This document shows, one piece after another, positions 9,755 through 55,905 of a DNA stretch of 64,000 nt (the stretch's first letter is position 1; every line of letters begins with the position of its first letter). The notes under the pieces are model-generated. The model did not search any database, was not told where the DNA came from, and was given only the letters and a program-made list of their open reading frames with translations. Position numbers and translations under genes: made by a program. Origin of the DNA: Prosopocoilus inquinatus (taxonomy: Eukaryota > Arthropoda > Insecta > Coleoptera > Lucanidae). The stretch spans positions 7,192,001-7,256,000 of the forward strand of contig CM069876.1 of NCBI GenBank assembly GCA_036172665.1, written 5' to 3'.

Positions 9755-10772
9755 TTAAAGTAGATGCTCAAAATGCTCTCCTTCAGCTTGAATACATAAG
9801 CGTACTCTGCGTTTTATGTTTTCAAACCCGTCTGCTAAGTGTTCGGGGGTTATGTTAGCACACACATCTGTAATGCCCGCACGAAGTTCTTCGATTGTGT
9901 GACGCGTAGTTCTAAAAACTGTGTTTCTCATGAGCGGAAAAATGAAGTCATCCATAATTGTGAGATCCGGAGACCTTGCAGGAAAATTCACAATTCGATT
10001 ATTGAAAAACTGCTGCGGGAAAGTCATTGTTTGATTAATAATTAGAACCTCTTATTAATTCATATTTATTCATAATTAACTCATTTCGGTATCTTTCAGC
10101 AGTTACTGAGTCGTTAAAAGATATTGGTCCGATGATACGCCTTCTTGACACTGCTAGCCAAACACCAATTTTTATTGGATGTAATGGAGTTTCCACAAAT
10201 TCATGGGGATTTTCTGCTGACCATAGTCTCATATTCTGTTTATTTAAATACCCTGAGAGATGAAACCAGGCCTCATCGGAAAAGAAACACTTGTCAAGAA
10301 TGTCGTCGTTGTTTAAGTTATCAAGAAACCACTGACAATATTCTGTTCTTCTGTGAAAATCTACTGGCCTGAGTTCGTGGACTGCTTGAATCTTATATGG
10401 ATAAAGCTTTAAGTCTTTTTTAAGAATAGTGTGACATGATCCCACTGATAGCTGAACTTCTTGTGAAAGTTTCGCAATAGATTTCTTGGGAGAGTGTTCC
10501 ATTCGATCCCGAACATCTTCAATGCAGACTGCAGTCCTTTTCTTAGCTGCTCCGCTCCCTGTTTTGCGACCAAGTGATCCTGTTTCACGAAATTTAAGAA
10601 CACAAGCATGGATATGTTTAACTAGCTGTTTACAAGTAATAGCAAAATTAGGAAACTGCTGTCGAAACTTCTGTACACACTGATTAATTGAATAAACTAA
10701 CTGTCCATTTTCTATTCTACCGGTTTGAAAATCACTTTCAACAATAAATATTTGCTGCTGTAATTCTAACAT
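9755..10772 (-). pseudogene. DUF4817-type mariner-like transposase, middle catalytic region deleted
   Basis: The N-terminal frame (10772 down to 10035, 245 residues) has the DUF4817-like helix-turn-helix (KFRETGSLGRKTGSG, residues 60-74), a second helix-turn-helix (SPKKSIAKLSQEVQLSVG, 94-111) and the first catalytic motif FFSDEAWFHLSGYLN (Asp166). It then runs through VWLAVSRRRIIGPISF and stops soon after ERYRNELI. The C-terminal frame (10027 down to 9755) has FNNRIVNFPARSPDLTIMDD with the third acidic residue. The stretch between them, which in relatives carries the FQQDGA motif with the second Asp, is absent, and the frame shifts there. It cannot encode an active enzyme. The N-terminal 245 codons are otherwise open, which suggests a fairly recent loss. 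Confidence 0.8.
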
Positions 10773-16034: not shown

Positions 16035-16150
16035 TTACAAGCTTGCTGCACATCGCCTAGATTGCAGTGGGGCTCTCAAGCCCATTTTGGTCCTAATTGG
16101 GGCTTCATCAGCAGAAGAGTAGCTCGAGAAACTCCATAGCAGTTCTGATG
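16035..16150 (-). repeat. Degenerate hammerhead-bearing repeat (same family as 21.6-22.2 kb)
   Basis: On the minus strand this copy keeps the stem I strand CTCGAGCTACTCTTCTG and an intact CUGAUGA (rc 16105-16111), followed by AGCCCC of stem II. The GAAA and palindromic stem III of its relatives are replaced by diverged sequence (ACCAAAATGGGCTTGAGAGC), so it should not cleave. The open frame through it (16035-16274) parallels the frames through the 21.6 kb copies, and I regard it as a by-product of the shared repeat. Confidence 0.55.
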
Positions 16151-16484
16151 ACTCGCCTGATTTATGCACTATTGTCAAAGTTTTTTTCTTCTTTGCAGAA
16201 GAGTTTCCTCGGCGCCGCACAGTGGAACGATCTAATGTAATGCTTTGGATATCGGTCAGAAACTCAAGTATCAAATTCAGAAAATCTTTTCATACATATT
16301 TGTTACTTATGTTGGTACGTTAAAGCATCTTTAACTTTTTTTTAATTTCTTTAAAAAATAAGCCTCATAAAATAGCTGAAAAATAATGTCTTCTTTAAAT
16401 CAGAAAAAAATTCAAATTTGAATTTCTTCGTTGGTGTTTTTCTAAATTGCAACAAACTTTGTACTGAAAAAAGAGTGTCTAATG

Positions 16485-19062: not shown

Positions 19063-21595
19063 GTAATGGCGAAAAGTACCAATCTTTTGATTTCGCTGGG
19101 ACTAATCATTTTGTAGCAAAAAAGTGTGAGACCTATTGTGGGACATGCTGTATATTACTGCATTAACGTTTATATGTTACAAATTCTAGCTAATTTGCGC
19201 TAATATGCGAATTTAAAATGATTTTAGTTTCATTTTCCTTTCATAATCCTTCTCTAATAACGCAGAACTTAACGTAACAAAACACGAGAAGTCTTTTGTT
19301 ATTTTGGTTATGAAGCGATGAATGAATCGTAATTTAATTTTCACCGTCTGTTGTAAATGGTATTGGTATTATCTATACAAATTTTCATAAAAATCTGTAC
19401 ACCTATGTAGCTATAGTAGCCATGTCCAGTAGCTCCCATTAGATCGTTCCACTGTGCACCGCTGCTGTCAATTATTTATCATCTGATTTAAATAAATTTC
19501 TTTACGTCGGTATGGATGACTTTTTAAAATTCAGATTCAAATATTCCGCCCGAAGGATCACAGAAATTAATTATTCCCTTGACATTTTTCAGTCACGTTA
19601 GAAAATGCTTTCTCCAGATGCGATTTGAGATATCTATTAACGTTAAAATTTATTGCTATACGCACCGGAAATAACACTTAGTTCACGAACATTAATAATA
19701 AATTTATGCAGCACTGTCTGTTATTATAAATGAGACTCCATTAAAACAAACCGACGTCATAAAGCATAACGACATCAGATACAAATCAGACGTTTTAGTA
19801 ATAAACTTAAACGAATTATTAATTTTCGACCCATTTGATACTCGTTGCGTATCTTTTCGCCGTAAATCCTCCATAGGATCGACGCTAATGAATATATGCA
19901 TTACATGCACACATCTGTCCAGAACTCGGTCATTAACTCGTTCAAATTTAATTTACTTTAAATAAAAACCGTTAAGATAATCAATTATTAATTACAGCTT
20001 TAATCAGTGTTTACGGTTGGACATTTTGGTTTTTGCATCTCTCATAATCACCACTGCAATGTGATGGCATGAAGATATAAAGATTTAAAAGATGCGTGAA
20101 AAGAAATTGTTTTTCAATCTACATATTCATGTATTCCCAATACAATGTTAGTGGATGTTAAGAATTTACAGTTTTATGTATACTTTACTTTCTATCCGGA
20201 AACTTAAAACAATTTGGTGCTTCAAATTTTGTGTTACTAACCTCTGCTATCTTATTATCAACGAGCTCGATAAATATTGAAAAAGGAAACAGGAAATTCT
20301 TTGAGGACAAATAACGGAAATATATTCTTCTTTAAAGTTCATTAACAGTTGCATGCGTCAATACTAGCAATAACTACAATAACAAAAAAGTAGATAGAAA
20401 AGTACTATCTTGAAGAGTCATAGATGATTATATTTTAGACGGACAAGGAGTTTCGACTGATATTAATCATTTGGTAGAGACGTGTAATTTTTTTTAGTAA
20501 AAGAATGTTCTTCAATTTTATGTTTTGTTTAAAACTAACGCAACAAACGTAAATGTTTTGATAGATTTATTACGTATCTAACTTTCAATGATTCAATATA
20601 TTTTGTAATCTACCCAACAAGCGAACAGTTACAAAGAGCATAAACGCAATAGATCTTGGCATTTAATCCAAGCAAAGAACCGGAACCAAAAGTCAGATCT
20701 TATTGTGACACCACACCATAAAAATAAATAACAGACTTTATTGCTGAAAGTTGTAACAGGCACATTGTGCAACACAAAATTAATGCTACAGTGCAAAAGT
20801 TAATCGCCATTAGAAGGAAACACAGCGACACCGAGCGTTTCTTCTGTCATTCCCAGCAGATCACGCTACTACTCACCAAATGCAGACTTCCTCGAGATTG
20901 GCATTACTGTTACATTTCTCGGTTATATTCAGGAAACGTGATCATGATCTATTGTAATCAGTAATTATAAGTGATCTATAGAGGTAGCAGAGTCACGGTT
21001 CAACCCAACACGGGAAGAGGTCATCGTTTATTTTCTTGTTTCAGTTACATGATTAATGGCATTTCTACGAATGTATTCATGTCTTGTGCAATGTATGCTT
21101 CGATTCGTGAGAAAACATGATTTATCAAAATAAACGTCCGACTGTCCGGACACGTAACGATGAAGTGCACGGAGTTTTCAGGAATCCAGAGCCATGAACT
21201 TACCATCTTTAAAATAAAATGCAAGTAATAAAACAAAAGCGAGAAACAAAAAAATATAAGTATTTTATATTTTCATTGTATGGACTCAATTGGAGTCTTT
21301 TGGAAAAAAAGCATTCAAATGTAAACTACAATTCAAATTAACCTCAATTTTTGCATTTAAAAAATTACAGTACGAGTATACAGGATAGCCCAAGTGAACG
21401 TATTTCTTCCTTAACGCGAAAACTGCTTAAAACAGGTAAACATGTTTTGTACTAAAGTTTCCTAATTGTGTATTCTCCATCTTGTAAAACATTTTATTAC
21501 ATTTTCAAATTTCTCGTCGAATATATGGTGAAAATATATGTTTTTTGATCAAATCGATGCTAAAACAACCTATACAGACATATCTTGTATAGTGC
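19063..21595. other. Long non-coding stretch
   Basis: No gene, RNA gene or complete repeat could be supported over 2.5 kb. Open frames at 19704-19910, 20767-20964 and 21045-21236 are short and featureless. Confidence 0.4.
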
Positions 21596-21633
21596 TTATT
21601 TTAGAAAAATTTTGTGCAAATCGTTTTTTATTG

Positions 21634-21720
21634 CAGTGAGAATCTCGAGCAGCCTCTGGACAGCTGTTTCAGCCCTGCTTGGGGCTTCTTCAGCAGAAAC
21701 GTAGCTCGACATTCCCACTG
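21634..21720 (-). ncRNA. Hammerhead ribozyme copy 1 (long stem I)
   Basis: Minus-strand fold. Core CUGAAGA (rc 21687-21693). Stem II is AGCCC paired with GGGCU around CAAGCA. GAAA follows (rc 21667-21670). Stem III is the palindrome ACAGCUGU (rc 21660-21667), with GUC as cleavage site (rc 21659-21661). Stem I has CAGAGG (rc 21653-21658) against UUUCUG (rc 21694-21699), an internal loop, then GCUCGA (rc 21645-21650) against UCGAGC (rc 21704-21709). It extends to AUUCU/GGAAU and CACUG/CAGUG at the outer edge. Every conserved core residue is present, and four separate helices support the same fold. The palindromic stem III suggests dimeric cleavage, known for hammerheads in Penelope-like elements. 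Activity is inferred. Confidence 0.85.
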
Positions 21721-21943
21721 CAGACCAAAAACGACTTGCACAATTTATTCGCAAATGCGATGTAAGAATGATGAATATATAAAATAGCGACATCTTACTA
21801 TCGCTTTTTGACCTAACATTGCAGTAGGATAGACAAATTGAAGCGGGATTTGCTCCTAATGAGTCCCCCATGCAAGGCGGCCATGCTTGCTGTCAAAGCA
21901 ATGAAAGATTTTAGAAAAAATTTGTGCAAATCGATTTTGATTG

Positions 21944-22030
21944 CAGTGAGAATCTCGAGCAGCCTCTGGACAGCTGTTTCAGCCCTGCTTGGGGCTTCTT
22001 CAGCAGAAACGTAGCTCGACATTCCCACTG
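21944..22030 (-). ncRNA. Hammerhead ribozyme copy 2
   Basis: Identical in the core and all helices to copy 1, shifted by 310 bp. CUGAAGA is the reverse complement of 21997-22003, GAAA that of 21977-21980 and the GUC site that of 21969-21971. The presence of two intact ribozymes in direct orientation means a minus-strand transcript across both could release a 310-nt unit. Confidence 0.85.
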
Positions 22031-22293
22031 CAGACCAAAAACGACTTGCACAATTTATTCGCAAATGCGATGTAAGAATGATGAATATATAAAATAGCGA
22101 CATCTTACTATCGCTTTTTGACCTAACATGGCCTTGCATGGGGGACTCATTAGGAGCAAATCCCGCTTCAATTTGTCTATCCTACTGCAATGTTAGGTCA
22201 AAAAGCGATAGTAAGATGTCGCTATTTTATATGCTTATTTTACGTAGAAAATTGTTGTTACATACGTATTGTCATGTTAGACCTACGTCCAAT

Positions 22294-22402
22294 TTCTTCA
22301 CTTATTGATAAATTTATCTGCCAGGTAATATCCGCGGAAACTATTATGGACACAATGGTTTCCAAGGGTAATACATGGCAGATAAATTTATCAGATAGTG
22401 AA
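22294..22402. mobile_element. Small palindromic MITE
   Basis: TTCACTTATTGATAAATTTA followed by TCTGCCAGGTAAT on the left pairs with its inverted copy TTCACTATCTGATAAATTTA followed by TCTGCCATGTATTAC on the right. A single similar arm (CACCTGCGGATAAATCTATC then TGCCAGG) lies at about 23018-23050, so the family is present more than once in this window. Confidence 0.55.
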
Positions 22403-22489
22403 TAAACCGTGCCCTAGACCTACAAAATAACTATTAGAACAGGTTGTCAGAAATATGATGTATTATTTGGGACAAGTCAAATTAAATAA

Positions 22490-22880: not shown

Positions 22881-23912
22881 TATTTATGGTGGGTTTATAC
22901 AGTAACTAGACTAACAACTAACGCGTAAGAATGAATCTTTTAGGGCCGTTTTCTCACTCATTGGTTAACTTTAATCTTCAGTTTATTCCCGTTAACTGTT
23001 TGTGTAAGGCCCGACTTCCTCACCTGCGGATAAATCTATCTGCCAGGTAGTATTCATCGCACACAAAATAACCTTCTCTGTTGAATTAGGTTAAGGAACA
23101 CAAGAGATTCTGTATAAAAAATGAATTACGACTCAATGAAATATCAAAAGCTGTAAAAACGTTAAAAATGAAAATATGCATAATGTGATGAAGTGATTTT
23201 TCTAATTACATGGAAACCAAAATTACCAAACGATACAAATTAGGCAAGTAACCCGTAGTCTTCGAATGTATGGGTTGTCGAATCACCCTGAATATAACAA
23301 TATCTTTTTAATAATTTAACTTTTTTTCTCTCTATTTAAGAAGAACAAGCTCTCAAACTCCAAATCCTCAACGGGCTGGTACACTTATTACAATTCTTTT
23401 TAATAAAACATCTGAAACCATTTTTGACAATTTATGTGTTTTTATCAACCTCGTTTTCGTTTGTACTGCAGCGATAATTTAGAGGTAAAGCGAGCACACT
23501 CCTTTTCACAATATTTGGAACTCATAAAATACTTAACGGATAAATTCGGGAAAGTTTAATTTGCAGTTTTCAATGCAGTTTTGCTGAGGATAACACCGCA
23601 GCGATAGAAATGCGTATGTAGGTATTTGTATTTAAAAAAGAAGTTGTGATTAGAGAAGAATTTACATTTGTTAAAACAATAGGTTTCAGTATTGTTCAAT
23701 GAGTAAGATACAGAAAGAAACATTCCGTGTAATTTTCTGTTCTGTTTAAGAAAAATCGAAATCCTTGACGGACTGGCTCAATTTTTTTTCTTTTTAAATA
23801 ATTTAAATGATTTTTATCAACCATGAGTCGTTTGTAATGTAACGACAATTCAGAGATTAAAGATAATTATTTATTGTGCGCAATCAAGGAGGAATTTCAA
23901 CTAATTGCTGTA
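22881..23912. other. Non-coding stretch
   Basis: No gene supported. It contains the single MITE arm near 23018-23050 and GAATCACCCTGAATATAA (about 23280-23298), another possible isolated transposon end. Confidence 0.4.
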
Positions 23913-31541: not shown

Positions 31542-33723
31542 TAGAGACCGGATTTATAAGTTTTTACAAGTTTTTTACTCTAACATACCTAAACTTGGCG
31601 TTTTGTATTTATATGTTTGTTGATTAGAGAAGCCCAAAAATGGTAGTTTTATTTCGCATATAACTTAATATTTTAGACTTTTAGCGCATATTTATTTATT
31701 TATCCATATATTGATATAAATAACATTATAATTCCATATACGGTCAATATTCAAGTCTGCAGCTTTTCCAAGAAGTAATTTATTCTCCTCAACGTCTGGC
31801 CACTTTATTTTACGATTTCCCGGAATGTGATTTTCTGGGAATCTGTAACGACTTGCACTTGCATTTTGCACTTATGTTTTGCATTTCAGTTTGAGATAAG
31901 AACTCCGTGAATGTGTGTGACTAGTGACTAGTGTATTTATCAACGCGAATTAGTTGTTATTTTCTTATTTAATTTAAAGACGAAATAAATTCAGTGCTTA
32001 TCTTTTCAAAATGCCGAAAGTAGCATCCTCTCGATCCGAGCTATTGAAAAAATGGATTAAAGCATCTAAACATCTAACTACAGATGGAAAACTTATTTTT
32101 TGCAATGCATGCTCAAAACAGGTAGATACCTTACAAATTCTCTTAAAAATCACATTTTCATTTTGACAATATTTTAAGGTGTCGTCAGACCAAAAGTACC
32201 AGATTGATCAACATTTGGCTACAAACCTCCATAAGGAGTCGGAGAAAAGATGTGTGTCTAACTTTAAGCAGTCTTTTATTTCTTCAACAGCCAGTAACTC
32301 ACAGGGCAGTGACACAGGAAATGAATTCTTTTTAGACTTGTGCAGTGCTATGGCAGAGTCAAACATTCCTTGGCATAAACTTGAACAAGCAAGTTTTCGA
32401 ACTTTTTTGGAAAAATATTGCAATCGTCATATTCCAAATGAATCGACTTTGCGGAAAAACTATCTAAGTATATGCTACCAGCAACGGATGAAGAAAATAA
32501 GAGAGAAGCTTAGCGACAACAATATTTATATAGTAGTTGATGAAACGACAGATGCCTGCGGTCGTTATGTAGCAAATATGTTAGCAGGAGTATTAAGCAA
32601 CACAGTTGCACCAATATCTTATTTGGTAAATAGTGCAGTTTTGGAAAAAACAAATCATTCAACGATCGCACGTTTTATTAACGACAGCTTGACACTTTTA
32701 TATGCACCTAATCAAGTTAAATCGGAAAATATATTACTAATGGTGTCTGATGCAGCAGCCTACATGATAAAAGCAGGACAGGCTTTACAGGTGTTTTACC
32801 CAAATCTGATGCACTTCACTTGTATGGCTCACACAATGAATAGGCTCGCTGAATTGGTGCGACCAGAATACCCAACAGTAAATAAGTTGATCAATAACGG
32901 AAAAAAGGCGTTTCTTAAAGCCCCACTGCGTATACAACACTATAAAGAATTAGCTGCTGACCTGCCATTACCACCAGAACCAATAATTACGAGATGGGGT
33001 ACGTGGCTTGAAGCAGCAAATTGTTACGCAGATAACTTTAAACAATTAAAGGAAATTTTCTTAGAATTGGATGATTCCAATTCAGCGGCTTTAAGAATTT
33101 GTAAGGAATGCATGTCGAACACAAACATCGGGAATCAATTAGCATTCATTAAAACTCATTTTTCGGTTTTAATATTCACCATTAAAAAGTTGGAATCATC
33201 CCAGACGGCTCTATTAGATTCGTTTGAAGTGGTCGATGATGCAATTGAAAGTGTAAAATCAATTCCAGGGGAGATAGGAGAGAAGTTAATGGCAAAATTA
33301 GACAAGGTTCTATTACGTAATCCTGACTACAATAAAATGAGGAAAATCTGTTTAGTTTTAAAAGGTCAAAGTGAAGAGGATTTGGACATGGACCCCAAAG
33401 ATGTAGCATCCATGAAATTTGCGCCCATTACTTCATGCGATGTCGAGCGTTCGTTTTCCTCTTATAAAAATATTTTGACAGACATACGACAAAATTTTAC
33501 CCCAAATAATTTAAATCAACTGTTGATTATATTTTGTAATCCTACTATTTAAGTGTTAAGTGTTAAAATTACTTATATGAAACAATTTATGTTTTTATTA
33601 TTCTAAAGTATGTATAAGTAAAATAAAATTTTTATCGCATATAATATCCATATTTTGATCCATTTTAATCGCATAAAAAAAACTTATTTTCCACTTTTTT
33701 AGCACATATAAATCCGGACTTTA
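31542..33723 (+). mobile_element. Complete hAT transposon with 8-bp target duplication
   Basis: A 2,182-bp element inserted into the LINE above. The target duplication GTTATTAT is exact at 31534-31541 and 33724-33731. Termini are TAGAGACCGGATTTATA and, reverse-complemented, TAAAGTCCGGATTTATA. Subterminal copies of a GCATATAA-like motif occur on both sides (about 31656, 31686, 33637, 33670 and 33704) and may bind the transposase. The single gene inside is open throughout. Intact ends, exact duplication and an uninterrupted gene suggest a recent, possibly autonomous insertion. Confidence 0.9.
32011..33552 (+). CDS. hAT transposase, two exons (32011-32121, 32179-33552)
   Basis: A cut-and-paste DDE transposase that would bind the element's own ends in the nucleus. 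Exon 1 starts at ATG 32011 and encodes 37 residues. A 57-bp intron (GT at 32122, AG at 32177-32178) joins in frame to exon 2, which ends at TAA 33550-33552. The total is about 494 residues, a little shorter than the 550-700 common for hAT. A BED-like zinc finger spans the splice (Cys31, Cys34, His49, His55). The RNase H-like core shows IVVDETTDA (Asp158), LLMVSDAAAY (Asp228), CMAH (252-255), RW (309-310) and the dimerisation-region motif CDVERSFSSY (Glu460). All three catalytic acidic residues are therefore present. Without the intron, exon 2 has no good start and the finger would be lost. Confidence 0.88.
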
Positions 33724-38225: not shown

Positions 38226-40745
38226 AGTGGAATGCAATGTAACTTTTATCAGGTGAATTTTGATGTAGATCATGATACCTCCACCATTTCTGTCTATTCG
38301 GCATTTGTAATGTTGCAATTAGATTGCATCGTGCTTTCTTTATCTTTAACGTTTATTTCTGTCAGGGTTATTAAATCCAAATATTTAATGCAGTTTGATA
38401 TGAAGGTTATGAATTCATCAAACTGTGTTGTCAATGATCTGATATTTATATGAAGAAAATTAAAGTTTGGTTCTGTGGATAATTGGATCCTTAGGTCGTT
38501 TATTTCCATGAAAATGTTACTTAAGGTTTGTTCCTCGTTTATAATATCCCAAGAATTTTCCTTCATGCTGACCAAAAATACCAGAATCGGGAAAAGAAAA
38601 GATAGAAAGTGAATTTACTTAATTTTGTTGATATCTGTTTCCGTTGTGATTTGAATTATTTTGGAATTTTCACTCTTTCGAATGAGTATCTTCCCGTGTG
38701 ATGTCCACACGAATTTCCAACCGTATGATCTGGCTTTAGTTCTTACTTGTCACAGAAGATTTTTGCTATAGTTGGACAACTATTCGTTGATGTAATTTTT
38801 TGAGTTGACGTTATTCGTGAAAATTGTATGATTGGTTATCGGGATGGCTTTTCTCTTTTCTAGGAACTTATTTCTTATTTTTCATGAATTGAATTCTATA
38901 ATTATTGGCCGTGTCTTTTTACTTTTAGCAATTATCGACCTATCTCTCTGATTCCAGTTATATCCAAAATAATTGAAACGGCAATGAAAAACAGAATATG
39001 TTCTTTCTTTGAATCTTTTAATTTATATAGCATTCATCAACACGGTTTTCGGAAAAATCATTCCACCGTTACTGCAATAAATTCGCTAATCGAATATATA
39101 GTTGATGCATTTGAAAACAGAGAGAATGCATTTTCTGTGTTTTGTGATCTCACAAAAGCATTTGACTGCATTCCACACGAGATCTTAATTTCTAAACTAG
39201 AATATTACAATTTTGATGTATCCAGTATAAAATTAATAAAATCATATCTAACGAATAGAAGACAGTTTGCTCGCTATCGTGGCGAATGCTCAAATACAGT
39301 AAATACTACGTTTGGTGTTCCCCAAGGATGTGTACTTGGTCCTACTTTGTTCTTACTGTATATAAATAATATTGATAAATGTCTACCTAACGAAAAGATA
39401 TTATTGTTTGCGGATGATACAACATTACTAACTCGTGATGCTGATTTGATAAAAGGAACTGATAATTTTATGAATGCCGTAATTCAAATTAAAAACTGGT
39501 TTACAAATAATAAGCTCAGCTTGAATGAAAGCAAAACACAGTTTATGCTGTTCTCTCTAAGAGATACAAATAACATTAAGACAACAAATTTCACAAATAC
39601 AAAATGTATCAAATATTTGGGTGTATATTTAGATTCTACTTTACAATGGGGTGAACATATTAATTCTCTGGCTAATAAACTTGCTACGGTTACTTATCTT
39701 TTACGAAACTTAGTTAAATCTGTTCCCTTGAGTACCGTAATAGCGGTTTATTACGGTATTTTTCACTCCGCCATGTCATATGCTGTAATGGTATGGGGAC
39801 ATTGTCCAGATGCTAAAAGAATTTTTCTGCTTCAAAAAAAAGCTATTCGCATAATAGACGGCATTGGATATAGAGACAGTTGCAAACCTTCCTTTAAAAA
39901 ACTTAATATCTTAACGTTTCCTTCATTATATATACTTGAATGTTTGATTTACATAAAATTGAATGCCAGTAATTACAATGATCATTTGTCCATTCACAAC
40001 CACAATACTAGACACAATTCTGACATAGTACTGCCACAACACAGATTAAATAAATTTCGGAATTGAACTAATTATTTTGCAATAAAATTCTTCAATATTC
40101 TGCCTGCCGAAATAAGAGCAACTCCATTTCTGAAGTTTAAAAATATCATTAAAAATTATTTAATAAAAAATACTTTCTACTCGATTGAAGAATTTCTCCA
40201 GCATACTTACACTGCCTAGAATACTTTTTTATACAATATGCTGTATTATTTTTTATTTTTATTCTATATGTTTTGACCTATGATATACCTTGTGTTTATA
40301 TCATCAATAAAGCATTATTATTATTATTATCATTATCATTACTTTTAATCCGTTTTGATGGCGTCCTCTGTCAGTATATCTTCTGTCTGAATGTCTATTG
40401 TTAAATTATTTGCTATTTTATAAACTATGTTTTCTACGTTTTCTTCTTCTTGCTCCTCTACTCCTACAATCTCTATGCTCCAATTCCTCAACTCTTTTTT
40501 GTAAGGAATTTATTTTTCGATCTTTCTCTTTGTTTAAGTGGGTAAGTTCCTCTATTTTGGTTGCGTACGTCTGTAATTGCTTTTTAAACTCTTCTTGGTT
40601 TTTTTCGACGTTGAGAATGACGTTTCTTAATTCACGGATTGCTGCCAAGACAACAGCTTCTTCTTCTTGAGAATCTTCATCCTCTGTTTTTTCCTCTTTG
40701 TTTAGCCTACAGGATGCGCATCGCCAAGTTTCTTTTCTATTTTAT
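38225..40745 (-). pseudogene. LINE with ORF1 (zinc finger, coiled coil, FP-like domain) and start of ORF2, split by another LINE
   Basis: Read on the minus strand. ORF1 begins near 40745 with a zinc-finger-like WRCASCR and continues into a coiled coil (40648-40418, heptad-like IRELRNVILNVEKNQEEFKK). After the inserted LINE it resumes at about 38918 (KTRPIIIEF) and ends with a domain resembling baculovirus FP25K-type LINE ORF1 (SYGWKFVWTSHGKILIRKSE, about 38740-38680). ORF2 starts near 38575 with the endonuclease N-terminus (NFLHINIRSLTTQFDEFITF; LDLITLTEINV), then shifts frame at RNGGGIMIYIKIHL near 38260. Truncated at both ends and frameshifted. Confidence 0.75.
38928..40338 (+). pseudogene. 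5'-truncated LINE inserted in the LINE above, ORF2 almost intact
   Basis: A 9-bp target duplication, TTACTTTTA, flanks it (38919-38927 and 40339-40347). The copy starts inside the reverse transcriptase (NYRPISLIPVISKIIE) and continues through QHGFRKNHSTVTAINSLIEY, FCDLTKAFDCIPHEIL, FGVPQGCVLGPTLFLLYINN and the catalytic box LLFADDTTLL, with both Asp present. It ends with FNILPAEIRATPFLKFKNI and a (TTA)n tail at about 40315-40338. Over this length the frame is broken by one TGA only (40064-40066), after LNKFRN. No endonuclease remains, so it cannot move by itself, but it is the best preserved reverse transcriptase on the plus strand. Confidence 0.88.
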
Positions 40746-40767: not shown

Positions 40768-41277
40768 TCTTAGTGAGAGTATTAACATGGTAATTTACTC
40801 TTATAAAGGTTGCAATGTGTCACACAATAAATAGCTTTAAGAAACTGTTGGTATTGTAGCTTTTGATAGGTTTTATAATTGCTTATGGCCTTCTACATCA
40901 TCGTTTCCGTTGGCGGCCATATTTTCCTCTTGATAGGATGCGGCAGCCATAGCTTTAAAGTACGTATACGTAGAATAATTCAGATATTATTATTTTACAT
41001 AAAAAATTATAAATTGATGTGCATAATGAATTAGTTATGAGATTCAATTATCTATGAATCAATAACAAGCTAATTAATATAAAAATAATAATAATTCTTA
41101 CAATAAATATTTATGTGCAATAAATTTGTGTATTTCACGTGGCGCGTAAAGTTTTCAGAAGCATCGAAACAGCTTTGAAGATGAATTTTGATTTGCATGA
41201 AAAACTAAAATTCATTATTTCATATTTAAGAAGAAACTTGTGACCTTAATAAAAGGAAACTCTACTATTTGTAATTG
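40768..41277 (+). repeat. Diverged duplication, copy 2, left part
   Basis: Matches 35055 to about 35580. The Penelope-like element is inserted at its right-hand edge, and the remainder of the copy continues at 42823-43196. The 15 bp TACTATTTGTAATTG at 41263-41277 is the left target duplication. Confidence 0.75.
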
Positions 41278-41344
41278 AAGAAAGCGTAAATGCCGAAGGA
41301 CACTAAAACAAGCACGTGTAGTATTGGCTATATTTTGCTCATCC

Positions 41345-41400
41345 GTGTAGTAAATTGATAACTGATGACATGTTTCGGTTGAATAACCATTATCGAATCT
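41345..41400 (-). ncRNA. Hammerhead relic in left pseudo-LTR
   Basis: On the minus strand GGUU-AUUC-AACC forms stem II, followed by GAAA and the palindrome ACAUGU with UC as the former cleavage site. The expected CUGANGA upstream reads UCGAUAA, three departures including the essential G, so activity is unlikely. The arrangement matches the intact ribozymes at 12.6 and 21.7 kb. Confidence 0.5.
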
Positions 41401-41653
41401 AAAATACAAGATTGGCACTCAAAAACAAGTAATAAATAGTAACATAAGTTAACAAACCATAAACGAGAGACCACGCAATATGTGGCCATTTTTACTTAAC
41501 AAATGACAAAGTAAGAACTTAACCTAGTGAAAGTTACTAACAAGTGGTAAGTTACTAAACAGTACCAACATGAAATAAATGAAACAAAATTGCGGAGAAC
41601 AAAGTTAAAAACAATCTTTTTCGTCACGTTTTTACAGAGCGTTCTCGATCCCT

Positions 41654-42328
41654 ATGAAATTGGAGGATTTCGTGAATGAGATTAATATTATTCGCCAAAT
41701 AGCTTTCAGTAATAAATTCCCTGACGAAGTTATTTCTCGTCTTTTTCATAAAATCCGTAATAAATTAATCAATAGATCTGTCTTTCCTACCCTGGTTGAG
41801 GATCCCACTGATCCTGATATAAAATATGTTTCTCTACTTTACATCGGAGTCGTTTCTGACAAACTTAAGTCCATTCTAAATAAATTGGAAGGTGTACAAG
41901 TAACCTTTTCGAATGATTATAACTTGATCTCAATTCTGACCAATTCCAAAGATGAGATCGCTTGTATGAATAAAAGTGGAGTTTACTCCATCACTTGTAT
42001 ACACTCCAATTGTAACTCTGTTTATATTGGTCAAACCGGTCGTAATTTAGCCACTCGGGTCAAAGAACACTTGTCCTCAGCTAGATTAGGAAAGACGGAT
42101 TCTAACTTTGCACTTCACCTTTTAGATTCAGGACTCTATCCAGATCCTAATTTTAATGTCAAATTATTACACCAGTTACCTAAAGGTTTAAAGCTTAACA
42201 TAGCTGAATCTTTACAAATTTTCCTTTCTAAAATTGACAATACTGTCAACCTCTTGAATGATCAAATCACTTTCCCTCATTTTAACTTTTTTGAATCTAT
42301 AAATTGGAACCATTCTTTGATAAAATAA
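41654..42328 (+). CDS. Penelope-like element GIY-YIG endonuclease (C-terminal part of polyprotein)
   Basis: A 224-residue open frame. Residues 1-100 look like the linker that follows the reverse transcriptase in Penelope-like proteins (KYVSLLYIGVVSDKLKSIL). The endonuclease follows: GVY (109-111) and YIG (124-126) with QTGR, Arg135 in TRVKEH, and Glu185 in NIAESL as the likely metal ligand. Cys115, Cys120, His139 and His155 fit the CCHH zinc motif known before and within such endonucleases. The domain would nick target DNA for insertion. The frame is open to a normal stop at 42326-42328, so this part looks undamaged. The ATG at 41654 is probably an internal Met of a once larger protein, since the left pseudo-LTR ends just before it. 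Confidence 0.88.
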   Translation: MKLEDFVNEINIIRQIAFSNKFPDEVISRLFHKIRNKLINRSVFPTLVEDPTDPDIKYVSLLYIGVVSDKLKSILNKLEGVQVTFSNDYNLISILTNSKDEIACMNKSGVYSITCIHSNCNSVYIGQTGRNLATRVKEHLSSARLGKTDSNFALHLLDSGLYPDPNFNVKLLHQLPKGLKLNIAESLQIFLSKIDNTVNLLNDQITFPHFNFFESINWNHSLIK

Positions 42329-42639
42329 CCTCCTTTGTTTAACTCGTTGTTTATTGTTTAATGTTAACTTGTTCTTGGTTATTTACTCCTTATGAGTAAC
42401 TTTTTTACCATCAGTCTTCACCGTAATTGTTTTTAACTTTGTTCTCCGCAATTTTGTTTCATTTATTTCATGTTGGTACTGTTTAGTAACTTACCACTTG
42501 TTAGTAAGTTTCACTAGGTGAAGTTCTTACTTTGTCATTTGTTAAGTAAAAATGGCCACATATTGCGTGGTCTCTCGTTTATGGTTTGTTAACTTATTTT
42601 ACTATTTATTACTTGTTTTTGAGTGCCAATCTTGTATTT

Positions 42640-42695
42640 TAGATTGGATAATGGTTATTCAACCGAAACATGTCATCAGTTATCAATTTACTACA
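42640..42695 (+). ncRNA. Hammerhead relic in right pseudo-LTR
   Basis: Same features as in the left arm: stem II GGUU/AACC, GAAACAUGUC with a palindromic stem III, and the core upstream as UGGAUAA instead of CUGANGA. The two arms differ from each other in this core, which suggests independent decay of an ancestral ribozyme. Confidence 0.5.
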
Positions 42696-42822
42696 CGGAT
42701 GAGCAAAATATAGCTAAGACTACACGTGCTTGTTTTAGTGACCTTCGGCATTTACGCTTCCTTCAATTTTGATTGTCACTAATATTATGGATAATCCACT
42801 TTTTTTTTACTATTTGTAATTG

Positions 42823-53959: not shown

Positions 53960-55905
53960 TATTTTCGTTCTGTAATACATAAAAGTGTAGAACATGTCAA
54001 AAGTATAAATAATATATAACATTTAAGAAACAAAGTATGACAATTACAATTACAAAAAAAAAGCATCACAAAACAATAGCGGTTTTGAAAAAGTCATTCA
54101 GAGAATAAAACGCATGTCGATATAGATGTCGTTCAATTATTTTTCTAAATTGGTTGTAAGGTAAATCTCTAATTTCCCGAGGAATAAAGTTATATATTTT
54201 TATTAACTGAAATACAACATTTCTTTGTATTTTGGCAAGATGGGTTTGGGGTGCATTAAGGTAAGTATTTGCTACGCCGCGAGTATTATGGCAGTGATCC
54301 AATTTATATTTTTCCAGAAATAGTTCATAATATGTCTTTGCAAAAAGAGAACATTCGAGAATGTAGAGTCCGTGTAACGTATGTATTTTTCTAGTTTTGA
54401 AAGTATCACAACAAGATTGTCTTGCACTTAATTTAAAAATACTCCTAACACATCGTTTTCGTAATATAAAAATTCTCTCCTTTTCTGTTGTGTTCCCCCA
54501 GAATATTATTCCATATTTTAACCTGGAGTTAACGTACGCATGATAAGCACAGAGAGCAGCCGATTCATTCACAGATGTTGCTAACATACGCAATGCATAA
54601 TTTAATTAACTTATTTTTGAAGCTAAATAGTCTACATGTGGTTTCCAATTCAAGTTCGAGTCCAACTTCAACCCAAGGAATAGAACTTCGTCAGGTGTGG
54701 TAAGTATTTCGTTTTTATATAAGATTGCAATGCTTTTAATGCTTGTTGTTGAAAACTGTATGATGTTTGTTTTTTCTATATTTAATTTCAGGTTATTAGT
54801 GGTAAACCAGTCTTCCATTGCACCGAGTGAATTACTTATGTTTTGATGTAACGATGTTGTATTGGAGGATTTTATTACTACAGAAGTATCATCTGCAAAG
54901 AGAGCAGTGTAATTGCTTTGAATTTCTGGTAAATCATTTATATACACCAGGAAAAGTAACGGACCCAGTACAGAACCTTGTGGAACACCTTTGTTTATGT
55001 ATCCCCACGACGAGTGTAGTTGTTGGCCTTCACTGCTTACTGCGACGCACTGTCTTCTTTTTTGTAAGTATGATTTTAAAAGTTCTAAAATTGTTCCCCG
55101 AAATGCCATTCTTTCTAGTTTCAACAGTAGTATCTGGTGATCAACACTATCGAATGCTTTGGATAGATCCATGAACATTCCTACTACAAGATCTCCTTCA
55201 TTGATAGCCTCCAGTATTTGAGAAATGATTTGATACATTGTTGTTGCAGTTGAACGGCCCTTCTGATAACCACTTTGTTGACAAGTTAATATTTTGTGAG
55301 CAGATAGAAAACTTTCCATTCTAGTATGCATTATTTTCTCAAATATTTTTGACAAATTAGATAGTAGTGCTATTGGTCAATAATTAAAAATTTTTTGTCT
55401 ATCGCCTTTTTTGTAAATTGGTTTTATAATTGTTTCCTTTAATTTATTTGGAAAGACACCTCTCTCAAATGACATATTTATAATGTGTGCTAGAGGTTCA
55501 GCTATAAAAGTTGCAATTTGTTTTAATAGGGAAACAGGTATATCATCAGAACCAACCGAAGTTGTATTTTTCAAATTTTTTATAATATGAAATACTTCTG
55601 CAGCATTGGTTGGTTCAAAAAAACAGGAATGATTCTGTAATTTTATCAGCTTTTCGTCAATTTTCTTTCCACTGTTAATATTTTCACATATATTCAGTAA
55701 GTAATTATTTATATAGTCCAAAACATTGTTAACATCTTCTGTAGTACCATTTGTGTCAATCTCATTTTAGAATAGGCTGTTTTTGCTGAGTCTCGGTTTT
55801 TGTAATTTGGTGTATAATCTGCCAAGTGGCTTTCATTTTATTTTTTGAGTTAATAAGATATTCTAAGTTGTTGTTAATTGATGGACTTTTAGTGCCATTA
55901 AAGAA
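53918..55905 (-). pseudogene. LINE ORF2 copy, one frame with three stops
   Basis: The (TTA)n tail is at 53918-53959. One minus-strand frame from about 55790 to 54066 reads through the whole reverse transcriptase: FHIIKNLKNTTSVGSDDIPV, PIALLSNLSKIFEKIM, QQSGYQKGRSTATTMYQIIS, MDLSKAFDSVDHQILLLKLE, KGVPQGSVLGPLLFLVYIND and the catalytic box ALFADDTSVV (both Asp present). The thumb follows with LGLKLDSNLNWKPHVDYLAS, and the frame ends with FYSLNDFFKTAIVL. In-frame stops are a TAA near 55763, a TGA just after IFNY (55374-55376, where Arg CGA is expected, a likely CpG decay) and a TAA at 54606-54608. The endonuclease is missing by 5' truncation. This is a comparatively young dead copy. Confidence 0.88.

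Follow-up and report, generated by a model that had tools for sequence, protein, structure and literature searches.

Head-to-head arms, two fixed ends and 12-bp target-site duplications in a hammerhead retrozyme of Prosopocoilus inquinatus suggest copying of RNA circles by Penelope-like-type machinery

The window, a stretch of 64,000 nucleotides of the Prosopocoilus inquinatus genome, contains a small element of a known kind, a non-LTR retrozyme of the metazoan type, composed of the parts given below. Unit coordinates, s1 to s310/312, are counted from the first base 3' of the predicted cut.

21593-21603: left target-site duplication TGCTTATTTTA, identical to the 11 bp at the right end
21604-22231: whole element, between the 11-bp duplications
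21604-22129, RNA sense on the minus strand: arm I, 1.7 ribozyme units
21636-21735, minus strand: hammerhead B including its long stem I, approximate limits taken from folds
21659-21693, minus strand: hammerhead B core, stem II and stem III, with predicted cleavage 3' of 21659
21659-21968, minus strand: predicted unit-length RNA of 310 nt, between the two cleavage sites given by the hammerhead rule
21969-22003, minus strand: hammerhead A core, stem II and stem III, with predicted cleavage 3' of 21969
22130: head-to-head junction of the arms, a single base that matches neither
22131-22231, RNA sense on the plus strand: arm II, about 101 nt
22232-22242: right target-site duplication TGCTTATTTTA

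The original prediction of two minus-strand hammerheads in a 310-nt direct repeat with an inverted end proved real: segments 21598-21822 and 21908-22132 are 98% identical at a spacing of 310, and the inverted arm, 22131-22232, is 100% complementary to 21777-21878 over 102 nt. The inverted copy had been placed at 22130-22232, but the element itself spans 21604-22231, and 22232 onward is duplication. The arms amount to 1.69 and 0.32 units. The outer end of arm I lies at about s55-61, the putative reverse-transcription start site I, with unit similarity extending to 21598 and hence into the left duplication, while that of arm II lies at about s192, the putative start site II. The GC content of the element is 43%. 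That no ORF is attached was nearly right, as a mechanical frame of 108 aa (21813-22139, minus strand) spans the arm junction and is the sole frame in 21593-22242, but it has no Pfam match at E values up to 1. An origin of units A and B from two different RNAs was considered and dropped: against the L013 unit (by eye), A has two differences of its own and B has one, so that they look like later changes.

Both window copies (21659-21693 and 21969-22003) carry the exact core CTGAAGA-(AGCCC/GGGCT)-GAAA-CAGCTG-TC, and in both the predicted cut falls after GUC. The 5-bp stem II (AGCCC/GGGCU in both copies) and the long stem I stood as predicted, the latter open and with more than 40 pairs, extension included, in the circular fold, which makes the topology type I. 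The statement that every conserved core residue is present holds for the core, but the 10.1-11.1 pair is A-U and not G-C. A G10.1-C11.1 pair is nearly invariant in hammerheads. Compensatory changes at 10.1-11.1 are reported for Dolichopoda in part of the text of PMC2837043. The bare core pattern is weak, at least two matches occurring in 15 of 100 shuffles; the full fold is strong (z = -6.5, with an equally good fold in 0/200 shuffles), and the circular fold of the unit has z = -7.5 against 100 shuffles. The Rfam check that had been proposed gave a divided answer: no family matched at gathering score across the window, and the best hammerhead match of a 1101-nt query was HH9 (15.5 bits, E 1.5), but a 106-nt query aligned end to end with RF00163 Hammerhead_1 (23.8 bits, E 4e-4), under the gathering score of 34. 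Matches to microRNA families (E up to 10) are plain hairpins and were taken as chance.

The palindromic stem III that had been described is present (ACAGCUGU, 8 nt), but it has no loop, so that a single ribozyme cannot form it fully. In the single-strand fold, G2.1-C3-U4-G5 pairs with CAGC of stem III at probabilities of 0.79-1.00, and the core of a lone ribozyme is thus predicted to be blocked, at -50.5 kcal/mol versus -45.6 for the open form. Two strands folded without constraint form a double hammerhead with both cores free at -104.9, twice the single fold being -101.0. Within one transcript that carries two ribozymes the free fold (-213.2) is better than the double hammerhead (-209.4 kcal/mol), which stands 3.8 kcal/mol above it and 6.0 below two open single forms, all these energies taking no account of loop-loop contacts or magnesium. 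A weak or palindromic helix III favouring dimers is described for axolotl retrozymes in sections of PMC7229834. We suggest that the blocked single form would fit a stable RNA circle, and both self-cleavage and circular RNA are predicted for this retrozyme from its folds.

Other units that keep the core, for which a genome search had been advised, are many, and the refutation proposed at the outset, a lack of further copies with the core, is not borne out. The search space was the beetle's own genome (650 Mb, 173 contigs), where the unit query gave 1637 first-look candidates and a second query in another register 1785. Because only the 40 best candidates were scored per query, the loci read here are the best-scoring, young copies; among the matches listed for the first query, the full-length ones are 97-100% identical. 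The first sample comprised 46 insertion groups from the window and loci L008-L050, leaving out L014, L016 and L022, which are nested in other loci or repeat these (L001-L007 correspond to the window or overlap with L033 and L034); 43 were kept after removal of the L020 group at a locus edge and of L034 and L050, duplicates of L033 and L019. The second sample, from the shifted query, consisted of L110-L119, 10 of the 25 stretches sought, with 10 groups, one of them at an edge. A duplication of at least 9 bp flanks 33 of the 43 groups of the first sample and 5 of the 9 testable groups of the second, i.e., 38/52, and 95 of the 101 cores found by pattern in the 33 duplication-flanked insertions of the first sample are exact. 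These numbers support the suggestion that the element is a small non-autonomous ribozyme retroelement. As separate observations, L033 and L034 represent one insertion that appears on both C13 and C11 with near-identical flanks, through segmental duplication or as an assembly duplicate, and the right flanks of L032 and L048 have TTTTACGTTGACTTGACTTGGTTTC in common, so that these two insertions may lie within one repeat or may themselves be related.

The ends of these insertions are strikingly regular, end counts being restricted to groups with a duplication. Site I was defined as s50-65 and site II as s191-198 of the unit. In the first sample (n = 33), 29 insertions have one end at each site (s50-65 and s192-198), three combine site II with another end and one is II/II, and all five duplication-flanked groups of the second sample are I/II (s53-56 and s191-198). 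Head-to-head arms, one from site I and the other from site II, are thus the build of 34/38 insertions, and the inverted copy, originally seen as a hairpin end on a tandem array, would instead be a second cDNA arm, present in most duplication-flanked insertions. The exceptions are L013 (site II and a truncated end, with a single arm), L042 (site II, the other end at s58 and too short for scoring), L048 (site II, the other end at s49 plus 10 unmatched bases, complex) and L047 (II/II, complex). A random choice of site per end would give at least 34 I/II among the 35 insertions with both ends classified with P = 1e-9. The register of the first query begins at site I, which biases the sample towards insertions whose site-I arms are long; I/I insertions would profit equally, however, and the shifted query gave the same result.

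The duplications of the first sample measure 12 bp in 23 cases, 13 in four, 14 in three, and 11 (the window), 9 and 17 bp in one each, and those of the second 12, 12, 12, 13 and 18 bp, so that 26/38 are of 12 bp overall. Flanks of the same insertion share at least 12 bp in 31/33 cases versus 1 of 1056 mismatched flank pairs, of which 22 share at least 9 bp. The groups without duplication are L008, L024, L027, L028, L029, one of three in L031, L032, L033, L040 and L043 in the first sample (10/43) and L116 (I/I), L118 (s55 and s202), L117 and L119 (one end unmatched in each) in the second (4/9); among them L028 looks II/II, and several have one end elsewhere. An untemplated GTT at site II ends was also considered and dropped, as G occupies that place in 102 of 111 internal copies and the A of the window is the minority form.

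In 26/33 insertions the arms reach the element ends to within 4 nt, the antisense arm starting at the left and the sense arm finishing at the right. The arms overlap by 1-5 nt in 20/33; the other overlaps are -1 (window), 0 (L011 and L030), 7 (L039), 10 (L012), 12 (one L031), 13 (L015) and 46 nt (L037), while L013, L019, L042, L045 and L047 show a long overlap or gap because they are complex, have only one arm or include a very short one. The position of the junction differs among insertions (by eye), the 33 elements have 33 different lengths, and arms range from 0.1 to 10 units, those of L038 counting 6.7 and 10 (2102 + 3106 nt). The targets are poor in GC (16% in the duplications, 30% in the flanks). 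Pooling of the 46 half-sites from 23 insertions with 12-bp duplications gave the half-site T(34) A(32) T(26) N ^ G(31) T(33) T(32), with P values of 5e-16 for G and 3e-7 and 1e-6 for the two T; the full GTT is present on both sides of 3/23 targets and on at least one side of 13/23. The pooled motif is symmetric, as would be expected for a two-strand cut by a dimer.

Variants common to the arms bear on the template. We compared 161 unit copies (matches of at least 30 nt at 88% or more) from the 33 insertions, of which 29 are simple, with at most one strand switch, 24 of these having copies in both arms. The simple insertions hold 77 private variants covered by at least two copies, besides 8 covered by just one copy. 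Four of the 77 are found in all copies of both arms (L038 16/16, L045 5/5, L046 4/4 and L049 4/4 copies), 72 are confined to one copy (56 with at least three copies covering the site, 16 with two) and one is partly shared (L038, 2/15 copies); none of the 77 occurs in two or more copies that all belong to one arm. Copies diverge by 0.54% within an arm, by 0.50% across the arms of one insertion and by 1.63% across insertions. At seven informative sites, 165 of 183 cells are uniform and 18 mixed, nine of the latter in the complex loci L010, L047 and L048, versus a mean of 76.5 and a lowest value of 64 mixed cells in 500 permutations. Such uniformity is expected if both cDNAs copy one circle, and equally if they copy a perfectly uniform linear multimer.

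A parallel is offered by Penelope-like elements, one of which lies in the same window:

41263-41277 and 42808-42822: 15-bp duplications TACTATTTGTAATTG of this element
41278-42807, plus strand: 5'-truncated Penelope-like element with inverted pseudo-LTR arms
41654-42328, plus strand: its GIY-YIG endonuclease frame, C-terminal part (Pfam PF01541, E 2.3e-6; 10 relatives)
42771-42807: its tail, at one end only

A query of the genome with the pseudo-LTR gave 127 candidates, 40 of them scored. Of the 43 matches, 21 stop at query positions 476-478, with the tail (478 being the last position of the query), 18 at 437-444 (tailless) and four elsewhere (459, 351, 351 and 145). The distinct inverted pairs, that of the window included, have one end of each kind in 8/8 cases, and their duplications measure 13, 13, 12, 11, 12, 10, 12 and 15 bp; a ninth pair was not counted, its flanks being those of another pair, and a complex C6 locus at 27.858 Mb was left out. 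In portions of the published accounts, the Penelope-like protein of the anole is described as cutting the two strands and initiating at two internal sites of the RNA (PMC11167929), and the structure typical of Penelope is illustrated by an inverted pLTR together with a 9-bp duplication (PMC3846280). The shared inverted arms, one start site per end and duplications of about 12 bp point to Penelope-type machinery for the retrozyme. The eight distinct insertions of the sampled Penelope-like family have no clear GTT target motif in their flanks (by eye), and for that reason this family is probably not the helper, though another family may be.

The two fixed ends, the duplications, the two arms, the shared private variants and the target motif are read directly from the genomic copies, and it is likely, in our judgement, that they belong to a non-autonomous retrozyme whose hammerhead-cut RNA circles are copied from two fixed sites by a Penelope-like-type enzyme, the arms being joined head-to-head. 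A multimeric transcript would be cut by its own hammerheads, best when two of them pair as a double hammerhead, and the resulting RNAs of 310-312 nt would presumably be closed into circles. A putative Penelope-like-type helper would then nick both target strands, 12 bp apart, in AT-rich DNA at the half-site TATN^GTT, so that both 3' ends could serve as primers on a common circle, with reverse transcription starting at site I from one of them and at site II from the other. Each cDNA would cover between 0.1 and 10 turns of the circle before the two were joined head-to-head, often at a few shared bases. In general terms, we lean towards the reading that every insertion consists of two target-primed cDNAs, with fixed starts on a single ribozyme-made circle and up to ten turns, fused over a 12-bp staggered cut; on this view metazoan retrozymes would parasitise Penelope-like machinery, with the circle as the true transposition intermediate.

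Inverted copies may also arise by LINE-type target-primed reverse transcription with twin priming, in which the retrozyme RNA is copied by the enzyme of a LINE and its 5' part becomes inverted at a second priming event. The RVT_1 frames of the window, presumably LINE-like, and the fact that copies with 5' inversions are one of the three structural classes of L1 and trans-mobilised retrocopies, as stated in part of PMC2912911, speak for this possibility. Nevertheless, in 34/38 duplication-flanked insertions the second start falls at one and the same place, site II, the duplication is of 12 bp in 26/38 with a symmetric pooled target motif, and it is a Penelope-like family of the same genome that matches instead, which leaves twin priming unlikely. 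Twin priming should invert at variable sites. A LINE-mobilised SINE has a constant 3' end and a variable 5' end, whereas in 34/38 duplication-flanked insertions of this family both ends are constant and the inner junction varies. A linear multimeric transcript, both arms copying parts of one long repeat RNA, is a template that we regard as doubtful, although such transcripts must precede cleavage and a homogeneous source array would also give uniform units, because the arms reach 10 units (L038, 2102 + 3106 nt), all four private variants carried by a majority of copies occur in every unit of each arm, and single-copy changes of a source array should recur in some daughter units, as only 1/77 private variants did.

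Movement of a DNA copy with two fixed ends by a DNA transposon or integrase would accommodate these ends, the near-constant 12-bp duplication and the symmetric target motif, but cut-and-paste would keep lengths, arms and junctions unchanged, whereas 33 elements have 33 lengths with varied arms and junctions, and the ends are not mutual inverted repeats but two different points of one RNA unit, so that we consider it very improbable. Hardly any credence can be given to an ordinary satellite DNA, its tandem and inverted copies produced by recombination or slippage after one insertion: there are indeed tandem units, complex loci with several switches (L010, L019, L047 and L048) and 14/52 tested groups without duplication, but the insertions are separate, each with its own duplication (at least 12 bp shared in 31/33 versus 1/1056 mismatched pairs) and with the same two ends.

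Compared with the metazoan non-LTR retrozymes (Cervera and de la Peña 2020, PMC7229834, parts of whose text are drawn on here), the family is similar in its type I hammerhead, below the Rfam gathering score, in a unit of 310-312 nt (about 310 nt in the window, 170-400 in print), in its non-coding units in direct tandem copies, with only the 108-aa frame that has no Pfam match, in its low GC (43%, under the 45-50% of retrozymes), and in duplications longer than 4 bp (38/52 groups, 26/38 of them at 12 bp). Set against the retrozymes of those sections, head-to-head arms, two start sites, a 12-bp duplication and a symmetric motif are features found only here, and a word search of the main text of PMC7229834 did not find 'inverted' or 'head-to-head'. 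Plant LTR retrozymes, as presented in portions of PMC7761336 and PMC11722881, are likewise non-coding and hammerhead-processed with circular RNA (predicted here), but have a type III hammerhead, LTRs, PBS, PPT and a 4-bp duplication, in contrast to the type I hammerhead and mostly 12-bp duplications of this family. The Dolichopoda pDo500 repeat also combines a hammerhead with an insect repeat, with single and double forms discussed, but is described as satellite DNA in the sections of PMC2837043 concerned, from whose main text the words 'inverted' and 'dispersed' were absent in a word search. Penelope-like elements share, in the portions of PMC3846280 and PMC11167929 drawn on, inverted arms, short duplications, AT-rich targets and a one-ended tail that stems from a second start site, and that of the anole carries a hammerhead as the retrozyme does (PMC11167929). 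The retrozyme has inverted arms with one of two start sites per end, but no reading frame with RT and GIY-YIG (only the 108-aa frame); it is protein-less, its start sites lie about 137 nt apart and not about 34-41, and its rolling arms are longer. The resemblance is one of mechanism only, and the retrozyme is not a Penelope-like element. The model in print, in the passages of PMC7229834 concerned, has circular RNAs as template and LINEs or Penelope-like elements as possible movers, the case for the latter being shared type I hammerheads, tandem copies and co-occurrence (repeated in part of PMC11722881).

What is new is the insertion anatomy, in which the inverted end is the rule, non-LTR retrozymes being already known; no earlier report of this rule was found in literature listings, with subscription papers and supplements outside their scope. 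The copies yield testable sequence rules (a start site per end, a 12-bp duplication, TATN^GTT half-sites and variants common to the arms) that are searchable in any animal genome with retrozymes and name two RNA positions at which cDNA is expected to start. If true, the circle would be a transposition intermediate readable from genomic copies alone, and two cDNA strands from one small RNA circle would show how ribozyme elements jump.

The window also holds an older relative:

16042-16174, minus strand: decayed hammerhead relative, with CTGATGA kept, GAAA changed to AAAA, and stem III and cleavage site lost

This copy belongs to a set of older relatives, with 816 genomic candidates, 40 of them scored. 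By a parser that took the best-pairing solution and so leans toward structure, five of its 39 relatives read as complete hammerheads, and the other 34 do not and look decayed. The core is CTGATGA in 5/5 of those parsed, with G10.1-C11.1 in 5/5 where the window family has A-U, stem II is GGCCC/GGGCC in 3/5, stem III is the palindrome ATAGCGCTAT in 3/5, and the predicted cut follows ATA in 4/5 and GTA in 1/5. Paired changes in stems II and III therefore separate the older family from that of the window, and stem III is palindromic in both. Another type I hammerhead with a canonical core (CTGATGAG..CGAAAC) and the palindromic stem III ACGTACGT is seen at L046:25-60. Hammerhead-like motifs occur in Penelope-like elements too: the pseudo-LTRs of the window (42640-42680 and 41360-41400) contain GGTTATTCAACCGAAACATGTC, with a palindromic ACATGT, in which CTGATGA reads TxGATAA, and C3->U with G8->A could jointly keep the 3-8 pair (by eye). 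A second Penelope-like family, at L028:140-1110, has head-to-head endonuclease fragments that meet near 500-545 and a hammerhead-like motif near 1070-1105, and a third, at L049:700-1915, was recognised by similarity to relatives with RT and GIY-YIG and adjoins a retrozyme copy. Pattern scans of viral_contigs found nothing. Other mobile-element frames of the window lie at 10035-10772, 32179-33552, 38984-40066 and 54606-55355; those at 38984-40066 and 54606-55355 are Pfam RVT_1 reverse transcriptases, which we take to be LINE-like, a DUF659 frame is presumably hAT-like and one further frame, without Pfam match, presumably mariner-like. Finally, a 56-nt imperfect hairpin and a further GATAAATTTATCTGCCAGGTA-like stretch, at 22289-22406 and 23011-23053, are perhaps the ends of another small element.
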